Origin: Pirellulaceae bacterium
GTDB taxonomy: Bacteria; Planctomycetota; Planctomycetia; Pirellulales; Pirellulaceae
Assembly: GCA_022448315.1 (NCBI GenBank)
Contig: JAKVCA010000037.1
Coordinates: 1-49,752 of the forward strand
Direction: 5' to 3'
Length of the DNA stretch: 49,752 nucleotides
A model generated the notes under the pieces. That model did no database searches and was not told the DNA's origin. It was given only the letters and a program-made list of their open reading frames with translations. This document shows positions 25,150 through 32,495 of this stretch, one piece after another; the stretch's first letter is position 1, and each line of letters begins with the position of its first letter. The translations under genes were made by a program, and so were the position numbers.

Positions 25150-25821
25150 CTAATTGGAAGGGGAATCTTTGTCGAGATCGGTGCTGTCGCACAAAACGGC
25201 ACTCGAGCAACAACGACAGTGGCGGCGATTCAATAGGTGAGCGGCGACGAGAGCGAAACCACCAATAGGGGTCAACCAAGGCAACAGAAAGCCGTACCAC
25301 GATGACGGTGAGCTGGGACCCTGGGAATCGACAACAGCTGACGAATCTTCGGAGCAGCAACTCTCGGAAGCCACCTCGCTTTCGGGGGAGCAACAATCAG
25401 CACACTCGGTCTCCGAAGTCGCGGCCGCTCCCGTGGTCAAGGCTTGCGGCGACTTGGGTTCGGTAGTCGCACAGCAATCGTCGGTTGATCCGAACGCCGT
25501 GACTGAAATCAGTGTCAGGCCGAGGCCAGCGATGATGATGGGAGCCATACGTCGATGATTCCGAAAGCCCGGGATGAATGCACAAACTGCGATGGCAAAG
25601 CAAGCGACAGCCATCCATTGGTGAAAGCCTTCATCTGCCAGAAAGCTAAGACCCAAAGTGGGCAAGTAGGCGATAATCAGAGGCATTGCGGCACAATGGA
25701 TCGCACAGCCGATCGCAGCGACAACACCCAGCCAGTCACTCCAGCGGGTCAATCCGGTTTTTTTCGTCGATGCCGGGGGTTCAGAGGATGCCGATTCAAG
25801 CACGGGTAAAACAGAAGTCAA
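25150..25821 (-). CDS. merC: MerC-like mercury transport protein with Cys-rich loop
   Basis: 223 residues from a TTG at 25821, supported by GGAGG 7 nt upstream; the ATG inside that region is out of frame and stops after five codons. The N-terminal part matches the MerC domain, four-helix membrane proteins that carry Hg(II) across the inner membrane: 'RWSDWLGVVAAIGCAIHC' with the Cys pair C39 and C43, then helices to about residue 120. Unusually, the loop at about 112-165 holds many Cys (DDCC, ECADCC, ESCC) and the C-terminus another cluster (CRCC, VLC). It lies 240 nt after the Cys17 peptide gene, same strand. Confidence 0.85.
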   Translation of the reverse strand: MTSVLPVLESASSEPPASTKKTGLTRWSDWLGVVAAIGCAIHCAAMPLIIAYLPTLGLSFLADEGFHQWMAVACFAIAVCAFIPGFRNHRRMAPIIIAGLGLTLISVTAFGSTDDCCATTEPKSPQALTTGAAATSETECADCCSPESEVASESCCSEDSSAVVDSQGPSSPSSWYGFLLPWLTPIGGFALVAAHLLNRRHCRCCSSAVLCDSTDLDKDSPSN

Positions 25822-25844
25822 GGTAATACCTCCATGGCGTTGCG

Positions 25845-25875
25845 AGCTGTGCGTACCGCATCACTATACACAGCT
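25845..25875. repeat. Inverted repeat just upstream of merC
   Basis: Perfect 7-nt arms AGCTGTG and CACAGCT are separated by 17 nt, 24 nt upstream of the merC start. The spacer contains TATAGT on the minus strand, which would suit a -10 box. It differs from the mer operator upstream of merR. It could be an operator or an mRNA hairpin in front of merC. Confidence 0.3.
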
Positions 25876-26060
25876 GGCCCGGCGATGGAAACGGCTCAAA
25901 GTACCCGCGCGGCCCACTGACACGGCATTCCTGACGTCAAACTCATGGCATCTCAGGGTCACCAAAGGCAATGAAAACTGAGGTGAGATAACCATGGAAA
26001 CGCCGTAAGTTTGCCGACTTAGAGGCTGACTTCCATTTTGAGGAAAATGTTGAACGTCCG

Positions 26061-26213
26061 TTATGAGCGGCAGCAGTAGTCGCATTCGTTACAGCTGGCA
26101 CACGCACAAGTCGACTGATCGCAGCCGCACGCCTCGGTTCCACAGCAGCAATCGCAGGCCTTGGTCTGGCAATCGCATTTTCCGGTTTCGCAGCAGCCAC
26201 AGGAATCGCTCAT
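26061..26213 (-). CDS. 50-residue peptide with 17 Cys (metallothionein-like), coupled to merR
   Basis: The ATG at 26213 has AAGGAG 6 nt upstream and starts one base after the merR stop, so translation is probably coupled. The product has 17 Cys in 50 residues, with no aromatic residue except a single Tyr, and motifs such as SCGCC, CDCC and CACASC. This composition fits a metallothionein-like thiol protein able to bind soft metal ions such as Hg(II), Cd or Cu(I). No family is recognised. Its place between merR and merC suggests it binds or buffers mercury; this is inference. A frame running upstream through merR is a shadow. Confidence 0.78.
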   Translation of the reverse strand: MSDSCGCCETGKCDCQTKACDCCCGTEACGCDQSTCACASCNECDYCCRS

Positions 26214-26214
26214 C

Positions 26215-26664
26215 TCATTCTCCTTCGCGTGATGTGTCGCAGCATTCCCAGTTGTTCTCGAAGCAATCGAGGAGGCTGCATTGAGTCTGTCGTGGGCCGT
26301 GATTTCCGCACGTTTGTGAAAACTTGCGGAGCATCCCAATCATTTGTTTCAGGTCGGTGATCTTTCGCTCAATCTCAACAATTTTGTCCTGGCATGCCTC
26401 CGCGAGACGGGGGCTTGTTTCCTCGTTACACAGTTGAAGGCCAAGGAGTTCTTGCGCGTCTTTTAGCGAAAATCCAAGCTCTTGGACTCGTTTTATAAAC
26501 CTGATCCTTTTGACATCGGCATCCGAATATTTGCGAAATCCGGCTCGCCGAGCAGGTTCATGGAGTAGGCCTTTCCGTTGGTAAAAACGAATCGTTTCTA
26601 CACCCACTCCAGCGCTCTTCGCCAAAGTCCCAATCGTCATTTGATCGCTTTGAATACTGCTCAT
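26215..26664 (-). CDS. merR: MerR-family Hg(II)-responsive regulator
   Basis: 149 residues from an ATG at 26664, directly after the mer-type promoter; upstream in-frame starts lie before the promoter and are not used. N-terminal winged helix: MTIGTLAKSAGVGVETIRFYQRKGLL (9-34). The three Hg-binding Cys of Tn501-type MerR have counterparts: C79 (QLCNEE), C119 (SQTCGNHG) and C129 (TQCSLL). MerR represses and, on binding Hg(II) between two subunits, untwists the promoter to activate it. A short extra tail adds Cys (DCFENNWECC). It begins a minus-strand unit with the Cys17 peptide gene and merC. Confidence 0.92.
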   Translation of the reverse strand: MSSIQSDQMTIGTLAKSAGVGVETIRFYQRKGLLHEPARRAGFRKYSDADVKRIRFIKRVQELGFSLKDAQELLGLQLCNEETSPRLAEACQDKIVEIERKITDLKQMIGMLRKFSQTCGNHGPRQTQCSLLDCFENNWECCDTSREGE

Positions 26665-26670
26665 AATCCA

Positions 26671-26702
26671 ATTATACACTCCGTACCTAAGTACGGAGTC
26701 AA
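26671..26702 (-). promoter_or_regulatory. mer-type operator/promoter of merR
   Basis: On the minus strand, -35 TTGACT (26697-26702) and -10 TATAAT (26671-26676) are 20 bp apart, longer than the usual 17. The spacer carries the dyad ACTCCGTAC / GTACGGAGT (26678-26699), the half-sites known from mer operons. The wide spacing and dyad are the hallmark of MerR-activated promoters. It lies 7 nt upstream of the merR ATG, so merR is probably autoregulated and the whole unit leaves from here, with a near-leaderless message. Confidence 0.88.
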
Positions 26703-30956: not shown

Positions 30957-32495
30957 TCAGTCGTCTTGGGGCCGAAACGCGGTCTTGAGCCGTTCGAACG
31001 AGCGATTCAGTGGAAGTACCATTTCTCTGCAGCTTTCCAGCTTCTGGTCTTCGAGTTCATGCTTTAGACGTTCTAGTCGGTCCGAGAGTATTCGAGATTT
31101 CATCCTTTGGTAGCGAGTCACAGGGCGACCGCGAAGATACTCACTCACCATGAGTTTGCGATTCCAGTCCTCGTAAATGGGAACCCAGTATAACGCCGCT
31201 TCAAATTGCCCTGAGTTGGCAGCCGAAAAAACCTCGGTGTGCACAAACCGCATTTCCTTCAAGATCTGTTCCCGTGGTGGGTAATACAGAAAACATCCAA
31301 AAAAACTAGCGATCACAAGGCCGAGAAAAGCGATGACTCCTAAGACTGGCCCGGGCAGCACAATATCCCAATTACCCTTCTCTTTAACTACCGCCTTGGC
31401 AAGCCACGCTTCGATACGGTACTTAGAATCCAGTCGCCTTAAGAAAAGTCCCACAACGGCAACGCAAAACAGGACGGCAGCCGCGACCCATTCATGGGGA
31501 TTGATATTGTCTGACAGATTTTTTCCCAGTCGATACCAGGGTTCAGTCTCTCCAGGGAAAAAAGGATTGCAGTACCCGTCAAACGCGTGAGTATGGCCGG
31601 TAGGGTCAATGCCTTTCGGATAGAGAGGTTTGTCAAGTCCGTATCCGATGGCGACGACCAAAACAAACAGACTTGCCAATGCAATCAGGGTTCGAGCACG
31701 GGAGTGATGGAGAAAGATCCACGCGATAAGGCCGATGTTTAATCCCGCGCCGAGAACCAACAGCGTGAAAGCTGCTCCAATAGAGTTTCCATGCTGGAAC
31801 ATCGATGCCAACTGCATCATGATCGTCATCGGCGCTGCGTAGGCGGGTACGGCCACAGCTGCCATGAAGAGTGGTGCAAAAGGATCATTCGCTTCAGCCG
31901 CCATCCCTAAGCTTCCATGAGGCAAAAGCATGGCCGAGGTGGCCACCCCAAACAAGGCCACGAAGCTGTAAAGAAAGGTGGGTCCGACCGCTTCGCGGGC
32001 AGTGGTTGTTGCGATCGCTGTCAAACGGCGAATGCCGTAGGGAATTTCCGTAGGTTGCTCTCCAAGTTCAGTGTTCAGTGGAAACAGTCGGTCCCAGACG
32101 ACGCCAAGAGCTGTAACAACGGTCAAGGACCCCATACAGAATACGAAAAGGGTGAAGGGGTCAGACAAAGTCAGGCCATAGAGCACGGAAATCGGATTAA
32201 ATAAAGGGGCGGTCAGGCCAAACGCAAGCGTGGTGCCGCCTCGAATCCCTGCCTTCTGAAATTCTCGGATCACGGGCAAAACACCGAGTGAACAAACCGG
32301 CAGCAGCATGCCAATAATCCAGCCCTTCACCAGACTCAAAAATAAATTACCGCCTAGCCAGCGACGCATTTGCTCGTAGCCGATCAAGTAGCGGATGACG
32401 CCCGCAACCACAAGTCCGACCAAAATGGTTGGCGTTGCCTCAAAGGCGACCTCAATCAGTCTCTCGATACCGCCCACTAACATGATCGAGTTCAT
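30957..32495 (-). CDS. PF03773-type permease (possible SO_0444-like Cu/Zn exporter)
   Basis: 512 residues, with about ten hydrophobic segments. The first half has the PF03773 permease layout with LLPVCSLGVLPVIREFQKAG at about 64-83, close to the usual P-x-CSCG-x-x-P but with the second Cys replaced by Leu, and TAPLFNPISV. Relatives include ArsP-like exporters and the SO_0444-type Cu/Zn efflux family. A periplasmic loop has GHTHAFDGYCNPF. The C-terminal 90 residues are charged and helical, possibly a coiled coil. Its ATG overlaps the stop of the His-repeat lipoprotein gene by 4 nt (ATGA), so the two are translated together. Confidence 0.82.
   Translation of the reverse strand: MNSIMLVGGIERLIEVAFEATPTILVGLVVAGVIRYLIGYEQMRRWLGGNLFLSLVKGWIIGMLLPVCSLGVLPVIREFQKAGIRGGTTLAFGLTAPLFNPISVLYGLTLSDPFTLFVFCMGSLTVVTALGVVWDRLFPLNTELGEQPTEIPYGIRRLTAIATTTAREAVGPTFLYSFVALFGVATSAMLLPHGSLGMAAEANDPFAPLFMAAVAVPAYAAPMTIMMQLASMFQHGNSIGAAFTLLVLGAGLNIGLIAWIFLHHSRARTLIALASLFVLVVAIGYGLDKPLYPKGIDPTGHTHAFDGYCNPFFPGETEPWYRLGKNLSDNINPHEWVAAAVLFCVAVVGLFLRRLDSKYRIEAWLAKAVVKEKGNWDIVLPGPVLGVIAFLGLVIASFFGCFLYYPPREQILKEMRFVHTEVFSAANSGQFEAALYWVPIYEDWNRKLMVSEYLRGRPVTRYQRMKSRILSDRLERLKHELEDQKLESCREMVLPLNRSFERLKTAFRPQDD

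Follow-up and report, generated by a model that had tools for sequence, protein, structure and literature searches.

Does a mer-type regulator gene, followed by the gene for a cysteine-rich peptide and by merC but not by a mercuric reductase, constitute a metal-sequestering system, and if so, for which metal? We addressed this question for a locus in a Pirellulaceae genome (5.03 Mb, 126 contigs, 97% complete), on a 49,752-nt stretch of DNA that is referred to here as the window. A first-pass annotation of the window had read the locus as a sequestration-type mercury unit without merA, in which MerC imports Hg(II) and the peptide traps it.

Layout and conservation of the merR–peptide unit

All features of the locus lie on the minus strand. 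The first gene, merR (26215-26664), encodes a MerR-family regulator of 149 aa with the Pfam domains MerR_1 and MerR-DNA-bind, and is preceded by a mer-type promoter/operator (26671-26702) with most of its dyad inside the spacer. Between the merR TGA and the ATG of the next gene (26061-26213) lies a single G; the start of this next gene is preceded by AAGGAG, and its product is a metallothionein-like peptide of 50 aa with 17 Cys, no His, and CC and CCC motifs; position, length and Cys count are all as first annotated. merC (25150-25821) encodes a MerC-like (PF03203) membrane protein with a Cys-rich loop and a TTG start. From the peptide stop to the merC start we measured 239 nt (25822-26060), in agreement with the distance of about 240 nt given earlier. 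The sites listed for this gap include no second mer-type operator and no terminator-like site, and its single weak promoter-like site (25891-25863) is of a kind that occurs at the frequency expected by chance. The membership of merC in the merR–peptide unit is uncertain. Elsewhere in the window, an ArsP_1-type permease gene on the minus strand (30957-32495) has no evident link to the unit.

We identified 11 distinct copies of the merR–peptide pair. Four are from Pirellulaceae, namely the window, Blastopirellula sp. NAT61 (G034), and two further genomes (G002 and G405), and seven are from Nitrospirota (7 of 345 genomes sampled). The peptide gene directly follows merR in all 11. The merR stop and the peptide start overlap by 4 nt in three copies and are separated by 1 nt in the window and by 13 nt in the seven Nitrospirota copies, while AGGAG precedes the peptide in 10 copies and GGGAG in the remaining one. 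These arrangements indicate that merR and the peptide gene are a conserved unit. Because the seven Nitrospirota genomes are closely related and their copies have neighbouring genes in common, few independent events lie behind the 11 copies. The unit is rare: 3 of 98 relatives carry it, as do 3 of 397 class genomes and, in a wider sample of the phylum, 1 of 392, this one being the window's own genome. A contig scan of genomes from 84,980 species, a set that may lack close relatives of the window, yielded 248 pattern matches that reduced to three loci, two of which were Nitrospirales MAGs that belong to the seven Nitrospirota genomes above. Plasmid or viral carriage was considered and rejected, since no related peptide was found in plasmid records at E 0.1 and none of the 99 peptide-pattern matches in viral contigs was a relative.

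The peptide is not a chance open reading frame. None of 100 first-order Markov sequences of window composition reached 17 Cys per 50 aa (maximum, 10), and the frame is conserved between copies. Such conservation in relatives, on which the first-pass reading was to stand or fall, is evident in the 11 copies, which share 16 invariant Cys columns and four other invariant columns in an alignment of 54 columns in total. The column analysis covers all 11 peptides, including L038, whereas peptide alignment A5 covers 10 of the 11, with L038 left out. The 11 peptides contain 16-17 Cys in 45-51 aa; 10 of them have no aromatic residue and 10 have no His. Among the seven Nitrospirota peptides, pN/pS is 0.25, which shows selection on the coding sequence. 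In composition, the peptide thus corresponds to a putative metallothionein, being small and about one-third Cys, with CC/CXC motifs and few aromatics. The window peptide matched no Pfam or NCBIfam family, Pfam offered no family for 10 of the 11 members, and a profile search against PDB returned one match, at E 0.74. We consider that the peptide probably mops up toxic or surplus metal.

Promoter, operator and regulator

The promoter consists of a -35 element, TTGACT (26702-26697), a 20-nt spacer and a -10 element, TATAAT (26676-26671), with the perfect dyad ACTCCGTAC-TTAG-GTACGGAGT at 26678-26699; the initial description of a classic mer promoter with a 20-bp spacer and a dyad therefore holds. 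With sites counted once per strand, the dyad pattern ACTCCGTAC-N4-GTACGGAGT has no other site in the window at up to three mismatches. All 11 merR–peptide loci have this dyad and a spacer of 19-20 nt. In each of these copies, the first ATG of merR lies exactly 6 nt past the -10 element (26664 versus 26671 in the window), which suggests that the merR–peptide message may be leaderless. A second in-frame Met, eight codons downstream, is also conserved, so that M9 (26640) is an alternative merR start in the window.

A search of eight merR–peptide genomes for the operator at up to three mismatches returned a match at the unit in every genome, on both strands owing to the dyad. Seven of the genomes contain one site only. 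The window's genome contains one perfect site, the unit operator, which is its only zero-mismatch match, and one site with three mismatches, next to which no adjoining metal gene was recognisable by eye. The reversed operator, used as a control in the same eight genomes, gave zero matches. Because no further close site with a recognisable metal gene was found, the merR–peptide unit appears to be its own entire regulon. A pattern for mer-type promoters also matched 12 of 27 other planctomycete MerR loci, at two of them far from merR.

merA, noted at first as missing from the locus, was not detected elsewhere in the genome either. In the window's 97%-complete genome, the MerA model TIGR02053 gave four matches, all under the cut-off (best, 361.8 versus 454.45), and no MerA over this cut-off was detected in six merR–peptide genomes (the window's and five others, with the duplicate entry G445 counted as NAT61). 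Moreover, the C-terminal vicinal Cys pair was absent from 14/14 TIGR02053 loci inspected, a set that included L010 but otherwise stopped short of the weaker matches (up to 107 bits). A hidden merA was rejected on the basis of these two results. A MerT search of the six genomes gave 0 matches, with an equally silent control. In the available excerpt of a MerA gene survey, one row carries a single count for Planctomycetes (PMC8261052). Since the only close match of the operator in the eight genomes is the merR–peptide unit itself, the system would act by sequestration without a mercuric reductase.

One planctomycete of the same order (L048) does carry a reductase-like ORF (L048:2-1210) just before a merR; this ORF was called by its SCCAE ending rather than by an HMM. 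The operator at that locus (1459-1490) and the window operator are identical over 22 consecutive nt (TTGACTCCGTACTTAGGTACGG). This identity is the best argument for mercury, as evidence of kinship between the DNA sites rather than of the ion sensed, and a putative Hg specificity would rest mainly on the operator.

The regulator itself falls within the MerR superfamily, with both domains over their Pfam cut-offs and a long-spacer promoter with a dyad. Among the curated models, that for Hg MerR scored highest (120 bits), followed by those for Zn (100 and 93), Cu (90) and Cd/Pb (76); the Hg model, TIGR02051, nevertheless missed its own cut-off (120.1 versus 150.85 bits). The predicted structure has the MerR fold (mean pLDDT, 72). 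In structural comparison, CadR, PbrR, CueR and MerR rank close together, and Z does not separate the metals.

The Hg-binding cysteines, which we take to be Cys82, Cys117 and Cys126 in Tn501 numbering, had all three been assigned counterparts in the window MerR. Only Cys117 and Cys126 have them. In the alignment with plasmid MerRs, ZntR and CueR, the window has Ser in place of Cys82, and each of the 11 copies has Ser, Arg or Gln there; because this alignment is gapped in that loop, C79 may take the role of Cys82 in space. In the predicted structure, the long helix spans residues 85-119 and includes C91, and the Cys82 position immediately precedes it. Seven cysteines are invariant in the clade (C79, C91, C119, C129, C134, C141 and C142). 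Five of these are extra (C79, C91, C134, C141 and C142), and the last three belong to a CFEN-x-WECC tail. Because the Cys82 position is occupied by other residues and five other cysteines are invariant, the metal is not readable from the sensor; as the metal site is non-canonical, the metal response itself is one that we infer.

The non-Cys residue at the Cys82 position, which compares with Ser in CueR, would be compatible with a copper(I) or silver unit in which a CueR-like sensor is combined with a MymT-like copper metallothionein whose ligands are all thiolates, and the all-Cys, His-poor peptide would suit such a role. However, the curated CueR models score below the Hg and Zn models, the loop is C-x9-C as opposed to C-x7-C in CueR, and the operator search of the eight genomes revealed no copper exporter under its control. 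We regard a copper unit as unlikely.

Consistent with a separate regulator type, the search of the class (397 genomes) returned three genomes at 277-281 bits with the next best at 130, and all three carry the peptide. In the MerR tree, which includes 26 of the 27 planctomycete MerR loci (L072 missed the pattern and was omitted), the 11 peptide-linked proteins form one group with support of 100/99, indicating that peptide-linked MerRs are a discrete clade. Two of the three plasmid MerRs join this group, weakly and on long branches (85/67). Inside the group, the Nitrospirota proteins branch from within the Pirellulaceae set (100/98 and 97/79), a topology expected after a transfer. The CFEN-x-WECC tail follows the clade, being present in 11/11 peptide-linked MerRs and in 0/31 other MerR-family proteins aligned. 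This tail, the strict pairing of the peptide with the clade and the sole close operator per genome would all be expected if the peptide were a dedicated partner that strips metal from MerR to reset the switch, and not a general sink. A peptide with 17 Cys can, however, serve as sink and partner alike, and we think it rather doubtful that stripping is its dedicated function.

merC and the zinc-type neighbourhoods

The merC product shares the PF03203 domain with the organomercurial transporter MerC (78.4 bits versus a cut-off of 27.6) but falls far below the cut-off of the corresponding equivalog model, NF033784 (14.6 versus 140 bits), and differs from that protein in its long Cys-rich loop and in the zinc-type genes next to its relatives. 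It adjoins the unit in 2 of the 11 copies, the window and NAT61, as judged in flanks of 10-20 kb, some of which were ended by contig ends. Within the family, 75 of 199 genomes encode merC-like proteins, and the window's genome encodes two. Given this wide occurrence, adjacency in 2/11 copies led us to reject merC as a conserved member of the unit. Among 20 merC loci outside the unit, 15 adjoin a COG0523 GTPase, Fur-family or ZIP gene and five adjoin none of these, in 1.5-kb flanks read by motif with HMM confirmation on representatives only.

In the merC tree, which comprises 20 of 22 proteins (L085 and L104 missed the pattern and were omitted), the window and NAT61 copies pair at 93/96. Upstream of merC homologues (L078, L087-L105), a TGCAA-N5-TTGCA box recurs that is a candidate zinc-regulator site in Pirellulaceae. 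Allowing one mismatch, it is present in 10 of 22 regions, against a mean of 0.36 and a maximum of 2 in mononucleotide shuffles. This Zur-like box is absent upstream of the window and NAT61 merC genes, which says little because eight further regions among the 22 also lack it. We conclude that zinc-type neighbourhoods are where this merC group belongs and that, in one lineage, the gene ended up next to the merR–peptide unit, of which merC would be at most an optional, lineage-specific addition. A "merR-merC" label thus need not imply mercury, as this merC group tracks zinc-type genes.

These results also weigh on the mercury-specific reading, by which MerR would sense Hg(II), MerC would import it and the peptide would sequester it in place of reduction by MerA. 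The operator core common to L048, the first rank of the Hg model, the weak grouping with plasmid MerRs and the pairing of the window and NAT61 merC copies favour it. The non-Cys residue at the Cys82 position and the missed TIGR02051 cut-off speak against it, and the role assigned to merC as Hg importer is not upheld: merC is adjacent in two copies only, lacks the unit operator, fails the MerC equivalog and has its relatives beside zinc-type genes. Overall, we find a mercury-specific unit improbable.

The surroundings of the Nitrospirota copies may point to a different metal. Genes for a cobW-family GTPase and a ZIP transporter lie within about 1.4-8 kb of 7/7 Nitrospirota copies, with the families called on representatives. 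Five of the seven are also near genes for an FAD oxidoreductase and an unnamed W-C-W-G-x-D-like protein, and the two copies without these genes have a contig end on one side. Relatives of the same two proteins flank the second merC in the window's genome, which adjoins two ZigA-like GTPases scoring 594 and 582 bits, just under a cut-off of 600. This cluster (L116:6072-11984, contig C72) contains, besides the two GTPases and the second MerC-like gene, a gene for a pyridine nucleotide-disulphide oxidoreductase and genes for a 214-aa W-C-W-G-x-D-like protein and a 95-aa protein, neither with a Pfam or NCBIfam family; relatives of the set recur near merR–peptide in Nitrospirota.

Zinc is therefore a plausible candidate for the metal handled. 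In a zinc/cadmium unit, the sensor would respond to a surplus of Zn(II) or Cd(II), which the peptide would buffer, as SmtA does under SmtB; the cobW-family and ZIP genes, the ZigA-like GTPases, the zinc-type setting of the merC relatives with their frequent TGCAA-N5-TTGCA box and the second rank of the ZntR models would all fit. By contrast, no cobW/ZIP-type neighbours were detected by motif around the three other Pirellulaceae copies and no zinc-type genes among the 16 window ORFs scanned, the unit is oriented against its neighbours in 3/7 Nitrospirota copies, and these seven copies are close relatives. SmtA holds its metal in a Cys9His cluster; 10 of the 11 peptides lack His, unlike the Cys9His clusters of SmtA and Pseudomonas metallothionein. 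We view a zinc/cadmium unit as a tentative possibility, short of an even chance.

Proposed sensor–chelator loop and known systems

Based on these findings, we propose that merR–peptide is, with good probability, a compact autoregulated sensor–chelator (sensor–metallothionein) operon. MerR relatives activate transcription by untwisting a long-spacer promoter. Here, MerR would sit on its own promoter with the 19-20-bp spacer, and a soft thiophilic metal ion would bind its Cys-rich effector domain and realign the promoter, as in MerR relatives. Since merR leads the operon under its own control, levels of sensor and trap would rise in parallel on induction: a single transcript would yield additional MerR and, through translational coupling, the peptide with its 17 Cys. 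This peptide would then wrap the ion in a metal–thiolate cluster, the free ion would fall and the promoter would switch off; such a loop would need no enzyme or pump. Metal binding, induction, sequestration and feedback are each predicted from sequence here. The MerR-controlled thiol trap envisaged in the first-pass annotation finds support in the 11 conserved loci, the lack of a detected MerA and the near-exclusive operator. For the metal, we slightly favour Hg(II) or Cd(II) over Zn(II), and Zn(II) over Cu(I).

More speculatively, the peptides and their regulators might both be new, as a metallothionein family and a MerR subclass in obligate partnership, expressed from a coupled leaderless message. 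The seven-Cys effector domain and the CFEN-x-WECC tail would form an unusual multi-thiol site from which the ion passes directly to the peptide, and the operon, exchanged between Planctomycetota and Nitrospirota, would by itself complete a metal-defence loop without enzyme or pump. We put this extended proposal forward as a conjecture that is less likely to be right than wrong.

The unit resembles the mer operons of Tn21 and Tn501 (TIGR02051) in the MerR fold, the 19-20-bp spacer, a dyad of the CCGTAC-N4-GTACGG type and two of the three metal-binding cysteines. It differs in that no merA was found, merR opens its own operon instead of being transcribed divergently, the Cys82 position is lost, five extra cysteines are invariant and the 17-Cys peptide is the only constant partner. 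In smtAB of Synechococcus, too, the gene for a small peptide rich in Cys adjoins that of the metal-responsive regulator controlling it. In the available excerpt of one source, SmtB is a divergent zinc-dependent repressor (PMC7387436), whereas the regulator here is of the MerR type and shares the operon of a peptide that matches no metallothionein Pfam family. The same excerpt describes a Pseudomonas metallothionein operon without metal-responsive regulators (PMC7387436). In Mycobacterium, the small metallothionein MymT is under a metal sensor, RicR, which an excerpted account presents as a CsoR homologue with a regulon of five operons (PMC10141476), compared with one operon here. A further parallel is CadR-zrd of Pseudomonas aeruginosa, in which, according to the portion of the report available, a MerR-family sensor activates a protein likened to metallothionein; Zrd, however, belongs to the zinc-ribbon proteins and its predicted sites are mononuclear, and the exporter gene cadA is likewise under CadR (PMC12301328).

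Regulated bacterial metallothioneins are thus described, in the excerpts available, under SmtB (PMC7387436) or RicR (PMC10141476). No published report of the merR–peptide pair was among the matches listed, in a body of literature largely without subscription journals. A metallothionein-like peptide and a MerR in one operon would be close to the minimum for a metal-defence loop that is complete in itself, and in the peptide-linked MerRs a metal site that has been studied in depth is seen in a new natural variant. At a separate locus (L049:2652-2939), a 95-aa ORF with 8 Cys lies downstream of a different MerR with a similar operator.
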